64,000 bases of DNA from Sulfurimonas lithotrophica (GTDB taxonomy: Bacteria; Campylobacterota; Campylobacteria; Campylobacterales; Sulfurimonadaceae): assembly GCF_009258225.1 (NCBI RefSeq), contig NZ_CP043617.1, forward strand, positions 1,736,001 to 1,800,000, given 5' to 3'. Positions 343 to 56,318 of this stretch are shown one piece after another (the first letter of the stretch is position 1; each line of letters starts with the position of its first letter). The notes beneath the pieces were generated by a model. The model ran no database searches, had not been told where the DNA came from, and saw only the letters and a list, made by a program, of their open reading frames with translations. The translations under genes were made by a program, and so were the position numbers.

Positions 343-1733
343 GAGCATTAGTTAAAAACGGAATCGGTCTTTTTTCTCCTCAAGGTTTTTTGGACGGAGA
401 CAACACTTCAACATTTCTTAGCCTTGAAGATATAGAAGCTACGGTTGAGTTAAATGTTGACATGGTATTGGTATCTTTAAAAAAAGTTATCTTTTTTAAT
501 AAAAACGGCTTGGATGTATTTGTAAAACTTTTTTCAAAAGTAAAACAATCAAAAAGCATAACGGTAGGTTTTTGTGACTTAGACCATAAAAAATATGTAG
601 CTATAACCAAGTTTTATGCAGAAAATACAAATTTTTCTATTTTTAACACTTTTGCGACCGCTTCGCTTTTTTCATCAAGTTTTAAAAACCAAAATAAAAA
701 TGTACTGCTTTTTAGTGAAGACAAATCCCAAAGAACTGCTATGGCAATAGAACTTCACGATGCAGGACACAATCCCGTAGTCTGTCAAACTATGGAAGAA
801 TTTCAAGAAAAAAGTTCTAACAAAAGTGCTTATGATAATATAATCAAAGACACTTATCTTGGACAAATGGGACAAAAAGTAGCTACCCGAGTAACGGGAA
901 ATGCAATAATCTATACAATTTCCGCTTTTTTAGATACGGAGATTGGAAATACGTTTAATATCGCATATCATAAAAACTCACTAAATGTAGGATTTAGACT
1001 TTTTATTTTCGATGCATATAAAGTCGTAAGTATGAATATTCATGCTTTAAACTTCTTTACAAGACTCGCAACAAGTGCAGCCGAATACAACGCTACTATA
1101 TGTTTTGTGGGATTAGATTCTACAAAAGTTCAGGATTCTTTTCAGGAGAACATGGAAGATGCGGGCATTATATTTTATGCTCAAATGGAAGATATACTAG
1201 GAAATAAAAAACTTTTAGAAGAATTAGGCGCAAGCAGTGCCGCTAATATTCAAAATAAAAGAACTTTAAATAAAGCTATAGTTACCAAACTGCCTGATTT
1301 TATAGATGCAACCGTAGCAACGATTGAAATGATGACAAACTCCGAAGCTGCAAAAGAAGCCGTTGAAGTAAATAAGATTGATATTAAAGAAACAGAAGGA
1401 AAAATTGCTTCTTCTATAGGTTTTTACGGAGATATCGACGGTATGGTCGTGCTTGTTTTTCCCAAAGAGATAGCTAAAAAAGCATGTGAACTTTTAATAG
1501 GTGAAAACACCGATGATATTGAGATGATTTTAGATACCTTGGCAGAACTTGTAAATATCGTAGGCGGAAAAGTGAAATCTTTACTTGGAGATCATGGTGT
1601 AAGTGTAAATATAACACTTCCAAGAACTTATCACTCTATCGATGGACTTTTAGAAGTAGCTCAAGATAAAAAAGGTGTACAGGTAGATCTCATCTTTGAT
1701 AACGAGAAATTTTTATTTTTCTTAACTAGATAA
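339..1733 (+). CDS. STAS-like / CheX-like signalling protein
   Basis: A 464-residue cytosolic protein without signal peptide or membrane segments. Residues 1-110 and about 200-300 look like STAS-type alpha/beta folds. Residues about 120-165 (NVLLFSEDKSQRTAMAIEL) resemble a degenerate receiver start. Residues about 310-464 fit the CheC/CheX phosphatase fold, with IGFYGDIDGMVVLVFPKEIA and a DTLAELVNIVGGKVKSLL helix carrying the E..N motif family. A role in chemotaxis or phosphorelay signal termination is inferred. It is translationally coupled to the upstream HDOD gene. The two inner STAS assignments rest on pattern only. Confidence 0.6.
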   Translation: MRALVKNGIGLFSPQGFLDGDNTSTFLSLEDIEATVELNVDMVLVSLKKVIFFNKNGLDVFVKLFSKVKQSKSITVGFCDLDHKKYVAITKFYAENTNFSIFNTFATASLFSSSFKNQNKNVLLFSEDKSQRTAMAIELHDAGHNPVVCQTMEEFQEKSSNKSAYDNIIKDTYLGQMGQKVATRVTGNAIIYTISAFLDTEIGNTFNIAYHKNSLNVGFRLFIFDAYKVVSMNIHALNFFTRLATSAAEYNATICFVGLDSTKVQDSFQENMEDAGIIFYAQMEDILGNKKLLEELGASSAANIQNKRTLNKAIVTKLPDFIDATVATIEMMTNSEAAKEAVEVNKIDIKETEGKIASSIGFYGDIDGMVVLVFPKEIAKKACELLIGENTDDIEMILDTLAELVNIVGGKVKSLLGDHGVSVNITLPRTYHSIDGLLEVAQDKKGVQVDLIFDNEKFLFFLTR

Positions 1734-1780
1734 AAAGACTACTTCGATATAATTCCAAAATAATTCTTAAAAGGTTTATT

Positions 1781-2425
1781 ATGATAAAGGTAGCTCCAAG
1801 TATTTTATCTGCAGATTTTGGGAATCTTCAACATGATGTTGAAGAGATATGTAATGCAGGTTGCGATTTTGTTCATGTAGATGTTATGGATGGGCATTTT
1901 GTACCGAACTTGACAATCGGTCCCGTTGTAGTTTCAAGCGTTGCAAAATGTGCTACAAAACCGCTCGATATTCATCTAATGGTTGAGAACAATACTTTTT
2001 TTGTAGATCTTTTTGCACCTTTAAAACCTGAATATATCTCTTTTCACGTAGAAGAGGAAAAGCATCCTCATCGTTTAATACAAAAAATACGTTCATACGG
2101 CATCAAGCCTGCTATTGTACTAAATCCTCATACACCGCCTGAATCAATAGAATACCTTATTGGGGATTTAGACATGATTTTACTTATGAGTGTAAATCCC
2201 GGCTTTGGAGGGCAAAGCTTCATAGAAAGTGTACTGGCAAAAGCAAAAAAATTAAATGAAATGAGAAATAAATTAAATCCAAATTGTTTAATAGAAGTGG
2301 ACGGAGGAGTTAGCGATAAAAACATACGTTCTTTAAAAGCTGTAGGTGTAGATGTCGTTGTCGCAGGAAGTTATGTCTTTAAACACGATTCAAAAGAAGA
2401 AGCTATAAAGAGTCTGCAGATATAA
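1781..2425 (+). CDS. rpe: Ribulose-phosphate 3-epimerase
   Basis: This 214-residue TIM-barrel enzyme interconverts ribulose 5-phosphate and xylulose 5-phosphate in the pentose phosphate and Calvin routes. Visible signatures are the start MIKVAPSILSADFGNL, the metal-binding HVDVMDGHFVPNLTIGP segment, the MSVNPGFGGQSFI loop and the EVDGGV motif near the C terminus. The length is normal for the family. An AAGG ribosome-binding site lies just upstream and a TATAAT -10-like element sits near 1749. The stop overlaps the trpF start as TAATG, so the two are co-translated. Confidence 0.95.
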   Translation: MIKVAPSILSADFGNLQHDVEEICNAGCDFVHVDVMDGHFVPNLTIGPVVVSSVAKCATKPLDIHLMVENNTFFVDLFAPLKPEYISFHVEEEKHPHRLIQKIRSYGIKPAIVLNPHTPPESIEYLIGDLDMILLMSVNPGFGGQSFIESVLAKAKKLNEMRNKLNPNCLIEVDGGVSDKNIRSLKAVGVDVVVAGSYVFKHDSKEEAIKSLQI

Positions 2426-3009
2426 TGAAATGTAAAATTTGTGGAATAACATCATATGAAGATGCCATGATGGCAATAAAAGCAGGTGCAGATGCACTGG
2501 GATTTGTATTTTACGAAAAATCTCCACGCTATATATCTCCCTCGGATGCAAAAAAAATAATCTCAAAACTTCCGCCGTTTGTTGAAAAAGTAGGCTTGTT
2601 TGTGAATGTAGATGCACAGGTTATAAACTCGTATATTCAAGAATCCGGTTGCACTCTAGCCCAACTTCATTTTGAAGCGACAGACTCAGTTTATGAGCAA
2701 CTTTTTGTACCGTATATAAAAGTAATACGTGCAAAAAACAAAGAGGACATTTTAAAACACTCAGACGAGTATAGACTTGTAGATGCGTATTGTGAAGCAT
2801 ACGGCGGTGCAGGAAAAAGAATAAATACAGAATGGTTTGAGGGAATTGATTGTTCTAAAATAATTTTAGCAGGCGGACTTAGTCCTAATAATGTATCATC
2901 TGTGAAAAAATACGGTTTTTACGGTGTAGATGTTAGTAGCGGAGTTGAGATAAGTCACGGTAAAAAAGACCCTAAAAAAGTAAAAGACTTTATCGACAAT
3001 GCGAAATAA
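2425..3009 (+). CDS. trpF: Phosphoribosylanthranilate isomerase
   Basis: A 194-residue TIM-barrel enzyme of tryptophan synthesis that performs the Amadori rearrangement of N-(5'-phosphoribosyl)anthranilate. Signatures are the N-terminal MKCKICGIT with the catalytic Cys, GADALGFVFYEKSPRYIS, and the C-terminal phosphate-binding segments ILAGGLSPNNV and GVDVSSGVE. It starts inside the rpe stop codon and overlaps the next gene by 11 bases. No other trp genes lie nearby in the window, so the operon is mixed-function, as is usual in this phylum. Confidence 0.95.
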   Translation: MKCKICGITSYEDAMMAIKAGADALGFVFYEKSPRYISPSDAKKIISKLPPFVEKVGLFVNVDAQVINSYIQESGCTLAQLHFEATDSVYEQLFVPYIKVIRAKNKEDILKHSDEYRLVDAYCEAYGGAGKRINTEWFEGIDCSKIILAGGLSPNNVSSVKKYGFYGVDVSSGVEISHGKKDPKKVKDFIDNAK

Positions 3010-3796
3010 AAATTTTATTTTAGACGATAAAAGTATTCATAAACTAGCTAATAAAGGTTTAGCGAGAGAACATCTAAAAGATCAACTTGGAGATGATTTA
3101 GACTTTTTTTTAGAATTATGGAAGTCACAAGGTTTAAGTGTTGAAAAGTATAGAGGTTATTACTATTTTTCTACAAAGCTTTTAAAAATTGAAGATGCTG
3201 AGTTTTGTATAGTTGATATTGAGACAAACGGTTCAAAAATAGAAAAACATCAAATTATTGAAATAGCAGCTCTGAAAATCAAAAATAATAAAATTATAGA
3301 TAGATATGAATCTTTAGTTTATACAAAAGAGATAAATATACATATTACCGAAATAACAGGAATAAAAGCTGATGATACTACAGATGCACCTGATTTGAAA
3401 AAAGTTTTATATGACTTTAAAGAGTTTTTGGGAGATGCAATATTTGTAGCACATGATGTAAAGTTTGACTATAACTTTATATCCTCTAGTATGCAAAAAA
3501 TCGGTTTACCTCCCCTTCTTAACCGCTCACTTTGTTCACTTGATTTGGCACAAAGAAGTATAGTCTCATACAGATACTCCCTCTCTTATCTGAACGAGTA
3601 TTTTAACCTTTACCCTGATGCAACGCATCATAGAGCTATGAGCGATGTTTTAACTACGTATGAGCTATTTAAACTTTGTTTGAAAAATATAGATTCGGAA
3701 ATAAAAACAGTAGAGGATTTAATAAAGTTCTCAAAACACGCAAAAATGCTGAAAAAACCGAAACTTGATCCGCTTTATAAAGAGGAAAAGAAATAA
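2999..3796 (+). CDS. DnaQ-like 3'-5' exonuclease
   Basis: A 265-residue protein with a DEDDh exonuclease domain at about residues 70-235. Exo I is IVDIETNG, exo II is the VAHDVKFDYNF segment, and exo III contains HHRAMSDVLTTYELF with the general-base His. The N-terminal 65 residues are an extra helical region seen in epsilonproteobacterial DnaQ-like proteins. It could be the proofreading epsilon subunit of DNA polymerase III or a stand-alone exonuclease, and the sequence alone does not decide this. It is the last gene of the rpe-trpF run and converges on accA. Confidence 0.85.
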   Translation: MRNKNFILDDKSIHKLANKGLAREHLKDQLGDDLDFFLELWKSQGLSVEKYRGYYYFSTKLLKIEDAEFCIVDIETNGSKIEKHQIIEIAALKIKNNKIIDRYESLVYTKEINIHITEITGIKADDTTDAPDLKKVLYDFKEFLGDAIFVAHDVKFDYNFISSSMQKIGLPPLLNRSLCSLDLAQRSIVSYRYSLSYLNEYFNLYPDATHHRAMSDVLTTYELFKLCLKNIDSEIKTVEDLIKFSKHAKMLKKPKLDPLYKEEKK

Positions 3797-3856
3797 AATG
3801 TTCCATAGGTTCAAGCTAAGGGCAAAAGAAAAATATCTAAAATAAAAGTAGTGATG

Positions 3857-3934
3857 TAATTGCAAGGCGCTTGCGAGGAAGTATACTAATAGTACATGAC
3901 GAGCGAAGCAACGCAGCAAGTGCATTGCTAATTT
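3857..3934. repeat. Imperfect intergenic inverted repeat (REP-like)
   Basis: Between the convergent exonuclease and accA genes lies a G+C-richer stretch. Its arms, 3857-3874 and about 3916-3933, are imperfect inverted copies (roughly 13 of 18 positions pair) around an inner AGTATACT/AGTAC dyad. It is unlike the AT-rich spacers elsewhere in the window. It may be a dispersed palindromic repeat or act as a bidirectional transcription stop. No second copy was seen in this window. Confidence 0.45.
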
Positions 3935-50497: not shown

Positions 50498-53113
50498 TTA
50501 GAATAGGTTAGCGTTTTCGTCAACCCATTTTAAGTATTCTATAATATCTTGAGTCTCTTTTTTACTCATATGCTGATTAGGCATTTTTAAGTTAAAGTAA
50601 TCAATCATAGATTTAACATATGGATCATCGTACATTTTTTCTGGATCAAGGATAAAGTCGCTTACCCATTTCTCAGCATTCTTACCGTGACGCTCAAGAA
50701 CACCAGTTAAATCCGGACCAGAACTAACTTTACCGATAACGTGACATCCACCACATCCACCTTCACCAAATGCTCTTTCACCTGCAGCTGCAGAAGCAGA
50801 TTGTTTAGTAGCTACTTTTCTTACAAGTAAGTCTTTTGCTCTAATACCAACATCGGCAGTTTTAACCATTAGCTGCCAAATCATGTTTTCAAATAAAACA
50901 GCTTTTTCGTAGTCGCCTTTTTTAGCAGCTTCGTCAGCTTTTTTCTTTTGAGCAGGAATTTGTCCATATTGGTCAAAAGCATCAGTTACAAGATCAGCTA
51001 CAACTTTATGTTTATCGTAACCGTTTTCTTTTAAGAATTTTACAACACTTTGAATAACTGCATCTGTAGCATCATTAACTGCAATTGTTTTGTCATACTC
51101 AGCTTTTAGCTCAGCTTTAGACATTGTTTTCATTTTAAGTTTTTGAGCCGACACATATTTTTTGTTAGGGTCTTTAACCATTAAATAACCCATCATCTCT
51201 AAGTGAAGTGCAGAACAAAACTCTGTACAATAATAAGGGAATACACCTTCAATATCAGCGATAAATCTCATTTCAGTAGTTTCACCCGGTTCTAATGAAG
51301 CATGTGCATCAAAATAATCAACCGTAAAACCGTGAGTCTCATCTTGTGCTCTCTCAAGGTTAGTCATATACCAGATAACTTCATCACCTTTATTTACAGT
51401 AACTCTCTCAGGGTTAATGTGAGAACGAACCAATGTAGCATAAATTTCTACTTTGTTAGTACCGTCAGCTTTTTTAGTTCTAACAATTTTTTCTTGACCT
51501 GCTAAAGTTTTACCTTTATGCATTTTACCTGTTTTAGCATTTGTACCCATTTTATATCTTACGTGTGGGTGCAGTTTCTCAGCTCTAATCGCAACAGCTT
51601 GGTGAGGCTCACCTAAAGGTAAAGGCATATCAACTAATAAGTCCATAGTTTTACCGCTTACATCGATTAACTGGTGATTTTGAGGGTGAAGCGGACCAAC
51701 ATTGTCAAATCTATCAATAGCTAACTTATTAAGTGCAATAATATATTTACCTTGAGGATCTGCTGATTTACCTTCCATACCACATAAGTGACCGATGTTA
51801 TAGTGAACATTCTCTTTATCAAGTACTTTAAGTGTTTTATAGTTCCATTTTACAACTTGTGAATCAACATAAAGTGAAGTATAAATTTCTCCATCTATAT
51901 TTGAATACTGGTTATGCAATGGCCCAAGACCTAGTTCAACTTGACCGTGTAATGATTTTTTCATATCTAAAATAGGAATACCGTAAGGATCTTTTCCTGC
52001 GTATTCTTTATTTTTGATAAGTTTTTTAATCTTACTCCATTTATAAACAGATGCGTGAGTATCTAGTTTACCACAAACAGTAATATACTCTCCGCTTGGA
52101 GATACGTCAACACCGTGAGGTGATTTTGGTTCCGGAATTAAGAAAAGTGCGTCATGTTTTACAGCTACATCCATAGGGATAACTCTATGTCCGTTTACAA
52201 CTTTTACATTTTTCTTATCTTTAGCAACTTCTGCTAATTTTTTCCAGTTATATACGTGTAAAAAGTCAGTATCGTTTCTTGACATACCAGCTTCATTTGG
52301 CGGCATACCAACTTCTATACCACCTGTATACATTTCAGAGTTAAACGAGTTTGTAAAACCCCATCCGTCACTAACGCCTTTACCTGAATCAGATAAATCT
52401 TGCATATATGGAGGCATCTCTATAGTAAAAGACTTATCTTCTTTTATGCGTCCTTCTTTATGGTTGAATTTCCACATAGTCACACCACCACGGTATGTTT
52501 CTTTGTACTCTTCAATCGGGTGGTAGTTATTATCAAACGGAGCTGCATATTGTGCCGCTTCAATAATATAATCTGAATCTTGAGTGAAGAATGCTCCACC
52601 GTGTGCAGATTTAAAAACAGGATTTACAACAATTTGTTTTGTTTCAAAGTCATGTAAATCAATGATTGCGATACGTGGATTAGCTTTATCATTAATAGCT
52701 AACCATTTACCGTCATACTTACCGTCTTTTTCAGAAATAGCCGGGTGGTGAGTATCACCCCAGTTAATTTCTCTACCTCTGATGTTACCTTGTCTTAAAA
52801 TTTTAAGAGAGTCAACATCGTAACCGTATCCTTGCCAAGGCTCCGGTGTAAATACCGCTATATATTTTAATATACGCATAGTCGGAACACCGTAAACAAT
52901 CACCTGACCTGATTGTCCACCGGAACTAAATACAATAAACTCATTTCTTCCACCAGTAGGTGTATAAGTTTTTGCAGCACGTATAACATCATTTTCAGTT
53001 AAACCACGCGCTTTCATCACTTTTTGTAGTTCACCACCTGCAGCAGACGCAACTGTCGCAGCTAAAGTAGTCCCTAAAATAAGCGAAGAAAGCTTACCAA
53101 AATGCTTAGTCAT
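50498..53113 (-). CDS. nosZ: Nitrous-oxide reductase, clade II, with cytochrome c domain
   Basis: An 871-residue periplasmic copper enzyme that reduces N2O to N2. The N-terminal signal (KLSSLILGTTLAATVASA) lacks a twin Arg, so export is by Sec, as in clade II. CuZ-type segments include GDTHHPAIS, PKSPHGVDVSPSGEY and LGPLHNQYSNIDGE. The CuA site is YYCTEFCSALHLEMMGYL. A C-terminal monohaem domain has CGGCH at 787-791 with KMPNQHM as the likely Met ligand region. No nosDFYLGH genes are in the window. Confidence 0.96.
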   Translation of the reverse strand: MTKHFGKLSSLILGTTLAATVASAAGGELQKVMKARGLTENDVIRAAKTYTPTGGRNEFIVFSSGGQSGQVIVYGVPTMRILKYIAVFTPEPWQGYGYDVDSLKILRQGNIRGREINWGDTHHPAISEKDGKYDGKWLAINDKANPRIAIIDLHDFETKQIVVNPVFKSAHGGAFFTQDSDYIIEAAQYAAPFDNNYHPIEEYKETYRGGVTMWKFNHKEGRIKEDKSFTIEMPPYMQDLSDSGKGVSDGWGFTNSFNSEMYTGGIEVGMPPNEAGMSRNDTDFLHVYNWKKLAEVAKDKKNVKVVNGHRVIPMDVAVKHDALFLIPEPKSPHGVDVSPSGEYITVCGKLDTHASVYKWSKIKKLIKNKEYAGKDPYGIPILDMKKSLHGQVELGLGPLHNQYSNIDGEIYTSLYVDSQVVKWNYKTLKVLDKENVHYNIGHLCGMEGKSADPQGKYIIALNKLAIDRFDNVGPLHPQNHQLIDVSGKTMDLLVDMPLPLGEPHQAVAIRAEKLHPHVRYKMGTNAKTGKMHKGKTLAGQEKIVRTKKADGTNKVEIYATLVRSHINPERVTVNKGDEVIWYMTNLERAQDETHGFTVDYFDAHASLEPGETTEMRFIADIEGVFPYYCTEFCSALHLEMMGYLMVKDPNKKYVSAQKLKMKTMSKAELKAEYDKTIAVNDATDAVIQSVVKFLKENGYDKHKVVADLVTDAFDQYGQIPAQKKKADEAAKKGDYEKAVLFENMIWQLMVKTADVGIRAKDLLVRKVATKQSASAAAGERAFGEGGCGGCHVIGKVSSGPDLTGVLERHGKNAEKWVSDFILDPEKMYDDPYVKSMIDYFNLKMPNQHMSKKETQDIIEYLKWVDENANLF

Positions 53114-53191
53114 CTTATTCTCCTTATTTCACACAAAGTTTAAAGTACTCTGAATGATATGAAATAGTATTACAAATTAAACTCTCATAGT

Positions 53192-53205
53192 TTGACTAAG
53201 GTCAA
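53192..53205. promoter_or_regulatory. CRP/FNR-like dyad upstream of nosZ
   Basis: A perfect TTGA-CTAAGG-TCAA dyad lies 79 bases before the nosZ ATG, in the spacer shared with nrdD. It fits the half-sites of FNR/NssR-type anaerobic or nitrosative regulators and may control nosZ, nrdD or both. Confidence 0.5.
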
Positions 53206-53306
53206 ATTAGATTATATTTTTTTCACGTGACAGATGCGTGACATTTTTTGTTATGGATTTCTTATTGCATTAGTTATAAACTTTTGAAAAATATTTAGGA
53301 AATGCT

Positions 53307-55409
53307 ATGGTTGAAGTTATACTGAAAAGGGACGGGTCCAAAGAAGAGTTTGCAGCTTATAAAATAGAAGATGCAATTAAAAAAGCATTTAAAAGTGAAC
53401 ATGTTACATATGATAGTGTAGTTTTCTTTAATGTATTAGATATTTTAAAAGCAAAAAGAAGTGTTGCCGTTGAAGATGTACAAGATTTAATTGAAAAAGA
53501 ACTATACAAAGCAAGATATTTTGATGTTATGCGTTCTTTTATGATCTATCGTCATACACATAAGATGCAGCGTGACTCTTTACTAGATGAAGATACTACA
53601 TATATAAGTTCAACTCAAACTATAGAAGAATACATTAACGGTAGTGACTGGAGAATAAAAGCAAATTCCAATACAGGCTATTCAAATGCAGGACTTATAA
53701 ACAATACGGCAGGAAAAGTCATAGCAAACTACTGGCTTGACAAAATCTACTCAAAAGAGGAAGGTTATGCTCATAGAAACGGGGATTATCATATCCATGA
53801 CTTAGATTGTTTGACTGGGTATTGTGCAGGTTGGAGTTTAAGAGTTCTTTTGGATGAAGGTTTTAACGGTGTACGCGGTCGTGTTGAGAGTGATGCTCCA
53901 AGACACTTTCGTGAAGCTCTTGGACAGATGGCGAACTTCCTTGGAATTTTACAAAGTGAATGGGCGGGGGCTCAGGCATTTTCGTCTTTTGATACATATT
54001 TAGCTCCTTATGTTTTTAAAGACAAGTTAGAGTATAAAGATGTTAAAAAAGCTATCAGAAGTTTTATTTACAACCTAAACGTACCGGCGCGCTGGGGGCA
54101 GAGTCCATTTACAAACGTAACTATAGACTGGACTGTACCTGAAGATTTAAAAACTCAGATACCTACATCTAAACAAAACCACCTTTTTAAAGGTTTACTC
54201 GATTCTGAACTTGAAGAAAAAGCAAAAGAACGTGGATGCGATAGTTTACAGTCTATGACTTATAAAAATTTTCAAAATGAGATGAACCTTATAAATAAAG
54301 CCTACTATGAAGTGATGACTGAAGGTGATAAAACGGGTCAACCATTTACTTTCCCTATTCCAACCGTAAATATCACGGAAGATTTTGACTGGTATGGAGA
54401 AAATACGGATATCCTTTTTGAAAATACTGCAAAAATTGGTTCTTCATATTTTCAAAACTTTATAGGAAGTCAATACAAAAGAGATGCTGATGGTAATCTG
54501 GTTGAAAATGAAGAAGCATATAAACCGGGACATGTAAGAAGTATGTGTTGTAGATTACAGCTTGATCTTAGAGAGTTACTAAAACGCGGAGGCGGTCTTT
54601 TTGGAAGTGCAGAAATGACCGGTAGTATCGGTGTTGTAACTATAAATATGGCAAGACTAGGTTTCTTGTACAAACATGATGAAGAATCACTAATAAAAAG
54701 ATTAGATGAGTTAATGGTTTTTGCAAAATCTACTTTAGAGAAAAAAAGAGTATTTATCCAAGATATGTATGATAGAGGGCTTTTCCCTTATACGGCAAGA
54801 TACTTACACAATTTTAACAATCACTTCTCAACAATCGGAGTAAACGGTATCAATGAGATGATCCGTAACTTCACAGACGATGCATTTGATATCAGTGAAG
54901 ATAGAGGGATAGAGTTTGCGACTAAAATCTTAAACCATATGAGAGATAAAATGGTAGAGTTTCAAGAAGAAACAGGAAATCTTTATAATCTTGAAGCTAC
55001 ACCTGCCGAGGGTACTACATATAGATTTGCCAAAGAGGATAAGAAAAGATACCACGATAATATTATACAGGCAGGTATGGATTCAAATATATACTATACA
55101 AATTCATCTCAAATCCCGGTTACTCTTACCGATGATCCGTATGAGGCACTTGATTTGCAAGATGAACTACAAAATAAATACACAGGAGGTACAGTACTGC
55201 ATCTATACATGCAAGAGAGAATCAGTTCAGCAGAAGCTTGTAGAAAATTAGTAAAAAATGTAATCTCAAATTACACTCTACCGTACATAACAGTTACACC
55301 GCTATTTAGCGTATGTCCAAAACACGGCTATATAGCAGGTGAACATGAGTTCTGTCCGAAGTGTGATGAGGAGATTGTACTAGAATATGAAAACAAAGAA
55401 GTTTCATAA
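53307..55409 (+). CDS. nrdD: Anaerobic ribonucleoside-triphosphate reductase, catalytic chain without glycyl-radical loop
   Basis: A 700-residue class III reductase main chain. An N-terminal ATP-cone (VILKRDGSKEEFAAYKIEDAI) precedes the ten-stranded barrel. It has the finger-loop Cys region RSMCCRLQL, the GGGLFGSAEMTGSIGVVTINM strand and YYTNSSQIPV. The chain stops just after the C-terminal zinc motif (CPKHGYIAGEHEFCPKC) and so lacks the RVxGY glycyl-radical segment, which is encoded by the next small gene. A normal NrdD carries both on one chain. Confidence 0.93.
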   Translation: MVEVILKRDGSKEEFAAYKIEDAIKKAFKSEHVTYDSVVFFNVLDILKAKRSVAVEDVQDLIEKELYKARYFDVMRSFMIYRHTHKMQRDSLLDEDTTYISSTQTIEEYINGSDWRIKANSNTGYSNAGLINNTAGKVIANYWLDKIYSKEEGYAHRNGDYHIHDLDCLTGYCAGWSLRVLLDEGFNGVRGRVESDAPRHFREALGQMANFLGILQSEWAGAQAFSSFDTYLAPYVFKDKLEYKDVKKAIRSFIYNLNVPARWGQSPFTNVTIDWTVPEDLKTQIPTSKQNHLFKGLLDSELEEKAKERGCDSLQSMTYKNFQNEMNLINKAYYEVMTEGDKTGQPFTFPIPTVNITEDFDWYGENTDILFENTAKIGSSYFQNFIGSQYKRDADGNLVENEEAYKPGHVRSMCCRLQLDLRELLKRGGGLFGSAEMTGSIGVVTINMARLGFLYKHDEESLIKRLDELMVFAKSTLEKKRVFIQDMYDRGLFPYTARYLHNFNNHFSTIGVNGINEMIRNFTDDAFDISEDRGIEFATKILNHMRDKMVEFQEETGNLYNLEATPAEGTTYRFAKEDKKRYHDNIIQAGMDSNIYYTNSSQIPVTLTDDPYEALDLQDELQNKYTGGTVLHLYMQERISSAEACRKLVKNVISNYTLPYITVTPLFSVCPKHGYIAGEHEFCPKCDEEIVLEYENKEVS

Positions 55410-55502
55410 AGCAACTAGTTGCGTGGGCACTCTGCCGAAGAGAACCATGTGTTAACATAGATGGCAGAATTACTTCTGACATCGTTATATAAAGGAGATA
55501 TC
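55410..55502 (+). promoter_or_regulatory. Structured spacer inside the nrdD unit
   Basis: The 93 bases between the two NrdD pieces contain a 12-bp palindrome at 55411 (GCAACTAGTTGC). TCTGCC (55431) can pair with GGCAGA (55463), and a CAGAA-TTAC-TTCTG hairpin follows at 55465-55478. A strong AAAGGAG ribosome-binding site then precedes the ATG at 55503. Three in-frame stops (55407, 55416, 55458) rule out simple read-through. Confidence 0.5.
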
Positions 55503-55655
55503 ATGAGTAAAAATGAAGTTTTAAAATTAATGGATGAAAAAAGACAAAAGTGTATAGTATATACAAGAGTTATGGGTTATCATAGACCTGTTGAGAGTTT
55601 TAATGTTGGGAAAACCGGAGAGCACAGGGAGCGTAAACAGTTCAAAGAGTGCTAA
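55503..55655 (+). CDS. Separately encoded glycyl-radical domain of NrdD
   Basis: A 50-residue protein from the ATG with an AAAGGAG site (an upstream in-frame ATG at 55461 has none). It contains KCIVYTRVMGYHRPVESFN followed by GKTGEHRERKQF, which is the C-terminal glycyl-radical segment of class III reductases. The Gly of RVMGY is the radical carrier. It is in the same frame as nrdD and its stop directly precedes nrdG. It presumably docks on the 700-residue chain, much as GrcA replaces the damaged end of pyruvate formate-lyase. Confidence 0.88.
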   Translation: MSKNEVLKLMDEKRQKCIVYTRVMGYHRPVESFNVGKTGEHRERKQFKEC

Positions 55656-56318
55656 ATGATATACGATATCACAAAATTCACACATCTTGATTATCCTGAC
55701 CATCTAGCTTGTATAATATGGTTTAGCGGTTGTAATATGAGATGTGATTATTGTTACAATAGTGATATCGTATTTTCTAACAAAGGACAGTACAACACAA
55801 ACGATGTCATTGAGTTTTTAAAAACAAGGGTAAATAAACTTGACGGTGTTGTGCTTAGTGGAGGGGAAGCAACAGGGCATCATTTATATCAATTTTGCAA
55901 AGATATAAAAGAGTTAGGATTTAACATAAAATTAGACACCAACGGTACAAATCCTCGTATCGTTAAAGAGTTGCTACAATTTAACTTAGTTGATTATGTA
56001 GCACTTGATTACAAAGCACCGAAAAATAAATTTACAAATATTACAAAATCATCAAAATTTAGTGAATTTGAAAAAACATTGGAACATCTTATTTATTCAA
56101 ATATAAAGTTTGAAGTTAGAACAACACTACACGCTGACTTATTGAATGAAGATGATATAAATGAAATAATAAAAGATTTAGATGATAGAGGATATAAAAA
56201 CAACTACTATATACAAGAGTTTATAGAGACACAAAAAAATATCGGTAATATAAAAGCACCGATATATAAGTTTGATAAAACTAAACTTTTAGAAAATATA
56301 AACGTTATTTTTAGATAA
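55656..56318 (+). CDS. nrdG: Anaerobic ribonucleotide reductase-activating radical SAM protein
   Basis: A 220-residue radical SAM enzyme with the cluster motif CNMRCDYC in IIWFSGCNMRCDYCYNSD. SGGEATGH follows as the SAM-binding GGE motif. It installs the glycyl radical on NrdD. It begins immediately after the stop of the 50-residue glycyl-radical peptide, so substrate and activase are co-translated. Length and motif fit NrdG of the longer, PflA-like type. Confidence 0.92.
   Translation: MIYDITKFTHLDYPDHLACIIWFSGCNMRCDYCYNSDIVFSNKGQYNTNDVIEFLKTRVNKLDGVVLSGGEATGHHLYQFCKDIKELGFNIKLDTNGTNPRIVKELLQFNLVDYVALDYKAPKNKFTNITKSSKFSEFEKTLEHLIYSNIKFEVRTTLHADLLNEDDINEIIKDLDDRGYKNNYYIQEFIETQKNIGNIKAPIYKFDKTKLLENINVIFR

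Follow-up and report, generated by a model that had tools for sequence, protein, structure and literature searches.

The closest described systems are the one-piece class III ribonucleotide reductases (RNRs), which supply DNA precursors under anaerobic conditions, represented by NrdD of phage T4 (1h7a), Prevotella copri (8p23) and Thermotoga maritima (4u3e); these have in common with the locus described here the PF13597 fold, the zinc motif, the radical loop and the activase NrdG, and models of this locus compare with their structures at Z 26-33. In the one-piece enzymes the radical domain is on the same chain, and the available text of PMC9669993, PMC9531940 and PMC11226230 describes it as the C-terminus of the catalytic chain; in Sulfurimonas lithotrophica it is a separate gene product. 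Oxygen cleaves class III RNRs at the glycyl radical (PMC3019208), and the radical domain of P. copri NrdD has been described as dynamic, and as disordered with dATP (PMC11226230). Small free glycyl-radical proteins are known from GrcA/YfiD of E. coli and Y06I of phage T4, which complete a glycyl-radical enzyme (GRE) that is without its radical segment (PMC8683613), a role that the genes and the docked model would also allow for the peptide here; the known proteins are related to pyruvate formate-lyase (PFL) whereas the peptide here is related to NrdD, and they repair a damaged one-piece enzyme whereas no one-piece enzyme was found here. The authors of that work ask whether other GREs have spare parts (PMC8683613). 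Two chains are also found in the split RNR of Pseudomonas aeruginosa, which belongs to class II (PMC4520616), and phage RNR genes are split by introns, inteins and homing endonucleases, nrdD most often with six cases (PMC3653736). The intron- and intein-split phage genes have intervening sequences, whereas here there are none and the pieces can be unlinked. The break in the class II enzyme of P. aeruginosa is not known to fall at a radical-bearing loop. In the literature searched, from which subscription papers were mostly absent, no account of an nrdD whose radical domain is split off was found.

The window, the whole 64-kb stretch of S. lithotrophica DNA that was analysed, holds the following features, numbered from its first base:

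50498-53113, divergent from nrdD: nosZ, assigned by a nitrous oxide reductase propeller match
53192..53205, no strand: FNR/CRP-type palindrome TTGACTAAGGTCAA, between the divergent nosZ and nrdD
53307..55409, + strand: nrdD, predicted catalytic chain of 700 aa, with ATP cone and NRDD barrel and without the glycyl-radical loop
54546..54551, + strand: Cys414-Cys415 in the finger-loop motif MCCR, read from the sequence
55314..55364, + strand: zinc motif C670-x2-H673 ... C683-x2-C686 near the end of NrdD, read from the sequence
55407..55502, + strand: stop codon of NrdD and the spacer behind it; stops in the same frame at 55407, 55416 (TAG) and 55458 (TAG)
55491..55497, + strand: ribosome-binding site AAAGGAG of the peptide gene, from reading of the sequence
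55503..55655, + strand: predicted glycyl-radical-domain subunit of 50 aa with RVMGY, from its PF13597 match and a pN/pS of 0.114
55656..56318, + strand: nrdG, radical-SAM activase of the NrdG2 type, 220 aa, from a TIGR02495 match of 197.3 bits (cut-off 131.15)

Direct reading places nrdD between an ATG at 53307 and a TAA at 55407-55409; the final 31 residues of NrdD, CPKHGYIAGEHEFCPKCDEEIVLEYENKEVS, pass through the zinc motif, whose residues C670, H673, C683 and C686 are predicted from the family to bind zinc, and the chain then ends, 14 residues past the motif, with no RVxGY. The same tail is 9-37 residues long (median 14) in 146 split NrdD sequences. The finger-loop cysteines correspond to the MCCR double-cysteine group described in PMC9669993. 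The 50-aa open reading frame (ORF), from an ATG at 55503 to a TAA at 55653-55655, contains YTRVMGYHRPVESFN, in which residue 25 (codon 55575-55577) would by analogy be the radical glycine, and the first base of nrdG, 55656, directly follows the peptide stop. The main points had been proposed in the initial annotation, namely an NrdD that ends after its zinc motif without RVxGY, a radical segment in the next cistron, in the same frame with three stops between and its own strong ribosome-binding site, and an nrdG directly behind, and each is borne out by the reading.

Profile matches place the break precisely; NrdD covers positions 2-532 of Pfam NRDD (PF13597, 562 positions) with 540.7 bits, and the peptide covers positions 530-562 with 28.6 bits (cut-off 26.2), complementary halves that agree with the break point in the initial annotation. 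The glycyl-radical loop RVxGY is thus missing from the 700-aa chain and is found on the separate 50-aa chain. NrdD residues 4-86 are PF03477; the NCBIfam model NF006126 matches NrdD with 1089 bits, and the match to TIGR02487 is broken at the equivalent point, position 549. Membership in class III is supported by the NRDD barrel with its zinc motif and by the adjoining NrdG activase. Homology of the peptide to the C-terminus of PFL was not found, NRDD being the only Pfam family listed for it up to E = 1, a range in which the HMMER filters drop most matches above about 0.1. Matches of this domain also seem to account for the PGAP label nrdD on two proteins of 58 and 66 aa (WP_013449874 and WP_011154154) from Sulfuricurvum and Cupriavidus plasmids, which are the same gene; the label is silent on a two-chain enzyme.

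The nosZ and nrdD genes share a spacer of 193 nt (53114-53306) that contains the palindrome; the pattern TTGACN4GTCAA has this single match in the window, where 0.03 are expected, and is presumably the site of an FNR-type regulator. Promoter-like matches in the region are at chance level (13 vs 14.5 expected), and a structured RNA was rejected for the spacer at 55407..55502, which has no unusual fold (z = -0.82). On the C. necator plasmid pHG1 nrdD lies near a nitric-oxide reductase gene, and on pSULKU01 near napA; counting the nosZ neighbour in the window, the split RNR thus has denitrification genes beside it in three records. The S. lithotrophica genome, rated 99.99% complete and 3.13% contaminated, holds one nrdD, one peptide gene and one class I/II large subunit; a second intact nrdD, which would have marked this copy as decayed, was not found in it.

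The association between the two pieces was followed through a sample of 397 Campylobacterota genomes, searched with both the peptide and NrdD as queries. The peptide is present in 186 genomes and NrdD matches in 207, where 188 matches are strong and 19 weak (E above 1e-100); 185 of the 188 genomes with strong matches, S. lithotrophica included, also have the peptide. The three others are G373 and G396, with nrdD cut by a contig edge, and G171, with a truncated nrdD. A different NrdD, in which a single ORF of 699-791 aa spans the full 562-position profile, accounts for 18 of the weak matches, and the free peptide occurs in none of these 18 genomes; the last weak match, G020, is only a broken nrdD remnant. 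In G395, an assembly of 100 contigs, the peptide and nrdG were found and no nrdD was. An initial survey, matching in 33 of 60 relatives, had given the first loci, with ends read for those on the plus strand. The free-peptide matches listed for the phylum sample all lie in open frames of 48-90 aa. A gene in two pieces, with a truncated nrdD in one relative (G171), is what a sequencing error or a decaying pseudogene might leave; as 185 genomes share this NrdD type and the peptide, with the listed peptides in open frames, error in the stops is excluded, and with the peptide under selection as well the combined alternative has almost no probability left. The split is not local damage, and the same arrangement, which it had been suggested to seek in other Campylobacterota, is widespread there. 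In the truncated case (G171:C1, L296) nrdD stops at 376 aa, with neither peptide nor nrdG in the 8 kb read, probably through recent loss of the class III RNR.

The coding status of the peptide is supported by a pN/pS of 0.114, computed from 59 orthologous loci with 52 different 31-codon cores, as against 2.5 and 2.8 in the shifted frames; none of the 1326 pairs of cores has a pN/pS of 1 or above. A Shine-Dalgarno 4-mer precedes the peptide start in 59/59 orthologues and is found at 12% of random places. These signatures indicate that the ORF is no chance frame and is under purifying selection.

The two genes need not be neighbours. Reading of G127, G247 and G306 showed the peptide and nrdG in one locus with nrdD elsewhere, and match tables suggest the same for G216, G409, G240 and G259; in G390 nrdD and the peptide are separated by two ORFs. 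The peptide-nrdG pair of G247 (L285, G247:C1:7000-14000) has a class I nrdA and a redoxin gene in its vicinity. Readthrough or programmed frameshifting, by which both ORFs would be joined into one chain, could draw on the 29 of 105 split loci in which the ORFs have a common frame, 21 of these with a single stop between; however, the three phases are represented by 29, 26 and 50 loci, the NrdD stop and the radical loop lie anywhere from 34 to 388 nt apart, the peptide has its own ribosome-binding site, with three stops before it in S. lithotrophica, and nrdD is unlinked in the three genomes read and its core absent from the viral records described below. Since the loci can be unlinked, readthrough is refuted as a general mechanism, and the chance that it operates at all is very small. 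An intron or intein was rejected on the same distances, use of all three frames and unlinked loci.

Outside the phylum, the split form was found on plasmid records of Cupriavidus necator (pHG1), Sulfuricystis, Bradyrhizobium, Paracoccus and Thiothrix, the nrdD match of the last being itself in two pieces, and within the phylum on a plasmid record of Sulfuricurvum kujiense; records of Actinomyces oris, Acidiphilium and Geoalkalibacter have the fused form. A scan of GTDB contigs gave at least 576 confirmed places, the best 80 of which comprise 72 split and 8 fused loci in a sample that leans to relatives of Acidiphilium because the first query row was the fused Acidiphilium core; motif-dependent classing of the same 80 gave 70 split, 7 fused and 3 unclassed. 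An even, class-wide sample of 369 genomes around Bordetella contains 38 with a match, divided into 28 split (centre genome included; in three the core is fragmented), 7 fused and 3 partial. All 28 cores without the radical loop are accompanied by the peptide, and no genome of this sample has a core ending near position 530 without it. Apparent fusions, taken from equal open-frame lengths of core and peptide in the table, were rejected after L155, L109 and five stretches from four genomes were read and all proved to be split or a free copy. The nrdDG genes of C. necator pHG1, where nrdD is split, are reported to be essential for complete denitrification, and the C. metallidurans genome paper gives nrdDG as Rmet_5137 and Rmet_5139 (PMC2864759); the peptide adjoins nrdD in C. 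metallidurans, and the number skipped between the two is therefore probably the peptide.

A tree of 112 of the 164 extracted NrdD cores (99 split, 13 fused) was built by a quick search under LG+G4; short cores, four Campylobacterota loci (L018-L021), L032-L060 and L255-L296 were omitted. Three changes of state are required, read as one split at the base of a clade of Campylobacterota and Pseudomonadota and two re-fusions, one in Actinomycetota with Maricaulis and one in an Acidiphilium/Acetobacteraceae group; the direction of change depends on rooting with fused long-branch outgroups, for which the program gave a warning, and many inner forks are unsettled. The distribution marks the split as old and present in many bacteria, and the two re-fusions are further evidence that both pieces work together.

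For structural modeling with AF2, the window frame was read through the stops and both parts were joined by an artificial linker of 32 residues. Model 1 (A2), made without fused homologues, has a pTM of 0.67 and a peptide pLDDT of 61-81 that falls to 41 at the end; its best structural Z is 31.8, and its radical loop was not matched by the structural aligner. Model 2 (A4), made with eight fused homologues over residues 100-782, has a pTM of 0.87, a peptide pLDDT of 84-95 by blocks of ten and a best Z of 33.4; given the eight fused rows and the linker, it is no independent test of binding. Model residues 26-681 align with residues 120-735 of 8p2s_B (rmsd 3.0, Z 32.9) through the radical domain, as does the alignment with 9d3x_B (Z 33.4), and VIA-align likewise passes through the radical domains of 4u3e_B and PFL 2pfl. 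Alignments with 8p27_A, 8p28_A, 8p2c_A and 8p2d_B stop at model residue 565-566, the match ending at chain residue 674-675; in the dATP form of P. copri NrdD nothing is seen after residue 676, and the radical site is Gly711 (PMC11226230), which is within the matched range of 8p2s_B. Alignment of model 2 through the radical domain implies that the peptide is able to fill the position of the C-terminus, and the free peptide may occupy that position in NrdD.

The locus very probably encodes a two-chain class III RNR made up of the 700-aa NrdD, the 50-aa radical peptide and NrdG. NrdD would contribute the ATP cone, the barrel, the substrate site and the finger-loop cysteines, and the peptide would contribute the glycyl-radical loop in place of the C-terminus of a one-piece NrdD; NrdG would put the radical on Gly25 of the peptide, which, docked in the barrel as modeled, would pass it to a finger-loop cysteine for catalysis by the pair. 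That the glycyl-radical domain is a separate protein is supported by the complementary halves of the profile, conservation under selection, co-occurrence, unlinked loci in some genomes and re-fusions in others, and by the docked model, which leaned on fused homologues. A separate radical chain could be the extreme of the mobility seen in the radical domain of P. copri. Should the enzyme indeed consist of two chains, NrdD purified by itself would be inactive for the majority of class III RNRs in both samples (185 split vs 18 one-piece genomes in the phylum sample, 28 vs 7 in the Bordetella-class sample), and the target that the activase has to reach would be 50 aa long.

As oxygen cleavage falls at the glycyl radical, damage here would fall on the 50-aa chain; a cleaved peptide would be cheaply replaced and the large chain would survive. 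The comparison with GrcA made in the initial annotation is a good functional analogy apart from one point: GrcA acts beside an intact one-piece parent, and here there is no other nrdD, and none of the 18 one-piece genomes has the peptide; with no intact NrdD in the genome, the peptide would be an obligate subunit and not a repair kit. Extra copies occur in G127, which has three in all, the two extra ones in phage-like stretches (one with DUF5675 and DUF1353 neighbours), in G390, where the second is near a gene with an Mtd domain, and once each in G512 and G784.

Phage-borne copies are more numerous. The 101 viral loci, 21 found with the window peptide and the best 80 of 176 found with a wider profile, lie on 99 contigs and comprise 84 distinct peptide DNAs. 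In the stretches scanned around them, up to 5 kb on each side and many ended by contig ends, all 101 have the peptide, while none contains an nrdD core or, on either strand, a match to nrdG; the sole nrdD matches come from the fused Geoalkalibacter query, whose radical loop matches the peptide itself. Among 71 whole viral records (the 21, plus 50 taken from the 80) the radical piece is matched in 70, with the profile running from 521-532 to 561-562, and the nrdD core in none; G443 has no match at that threshold, and in G450 a single stray match of 15 bits covers 503-529. As viral records can be incomplete, a record without nrdD is no proof for the individual virus; 0/71 is nevertheless clear. 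On many phage contigs the small radical piece occurs by itself. The Allochromatium vinosum plasmid pALVIN01 and the ANMV-1 virus also carry the radical piece without the core; in the latter (L094, 2686-3120) it is a 145-aa protein that matches the radical domain only (profile 519-562). When three free peptides were compared by tblastn with named GenBank phages (E < 0.01), the free domain was found only in the ANMV-1 virus, along with two one-piece NrdD, and one further search found none. A rule that the phage copies lie among lysis genes was rejected, as only a few of the 107 genes scanned, out of 123 same-strand neighbours, match endolysin, lysozyme or spanin families.

The phage copies have a pN/pS of 0.28, and TR, MGY, RP, N, GK, E and R of the radical loop are kept in all 84 distinct viral cores; the loop appears to be under selection, though the viral searches used loop patterns, which favour conserved loops. 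One phage copy (L071, 5049-5147) has TRCMGY in place of TRVMGY. Viral stretches scanned without nrdD or nrdG might also suggest that the peptide serves another partner, as an inhibitor or a radical carrier for a different enzyme, and is carried by phages for that reason; this is unlikely, as the residues kept in every viral core are those of the radical loop, even if the loop-motif search favours them, and in bacteria the presence of the peptide tracks this NrdD type nearly one for one.

Carriage of the peptide alone (101/101 viral stretches without nrdD or nrdG match, 0/71 whole records with the core), its pN/pS in phages and the extra bacterial copies are consistent with a GrcA-like spare part that is turned over after oxygen cleavage, the additional copies raising the supply and the benefit maintaining the split; E. 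coli YfiD and phage T4 Y06I do so for PFL (PMC8683613). Against this, no unbroken NrdD of this type exists in the split genomes, which would make the peptide indispensable from the outset. On balance the spare-part explanation is slightly favoured; it adds to the two-chain explanation and does not exclude it. The extra copies and those borne by phages raise the likelihood of the 'replaceable part' in the initial annotation. The wider proposal, that the peptide is an exchangeable trans-acting radical subunit and that phages broadly encode only this spare part, re-arming an oxygen-hit host reductase during infection, stands at even chances; if true, it would be a spare-part system for a GRE other than PFL. 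Naturally separate chains make the question raised in PMC8683613 on GRE spare parts directly testable. PHROG 4132 matches both the window peptide (E 2.4e-9) and a phage copy (E 9.9e-10); no function is assigned to this recurrent phage gene family, and an NrdD radical subunit would supply one.

Two further features concern redox chemistry. Cys17 of the peptide (55551-55553), eight residues before the radical glycine, is invariant in 53/53 Campylobacterota and 80/80 GTDB cores, and its counterpart is missing in the fused outgroups L085, L087 and L088; it possibly serves as a further zinc ligand or has a redox role. L087 (MT835493.1, a gut phage; 1462-3891) encodes a related one-piece NrdD with a C-terminal glutaredoxin domain (PF00462), which is possibly a built-in reductant.
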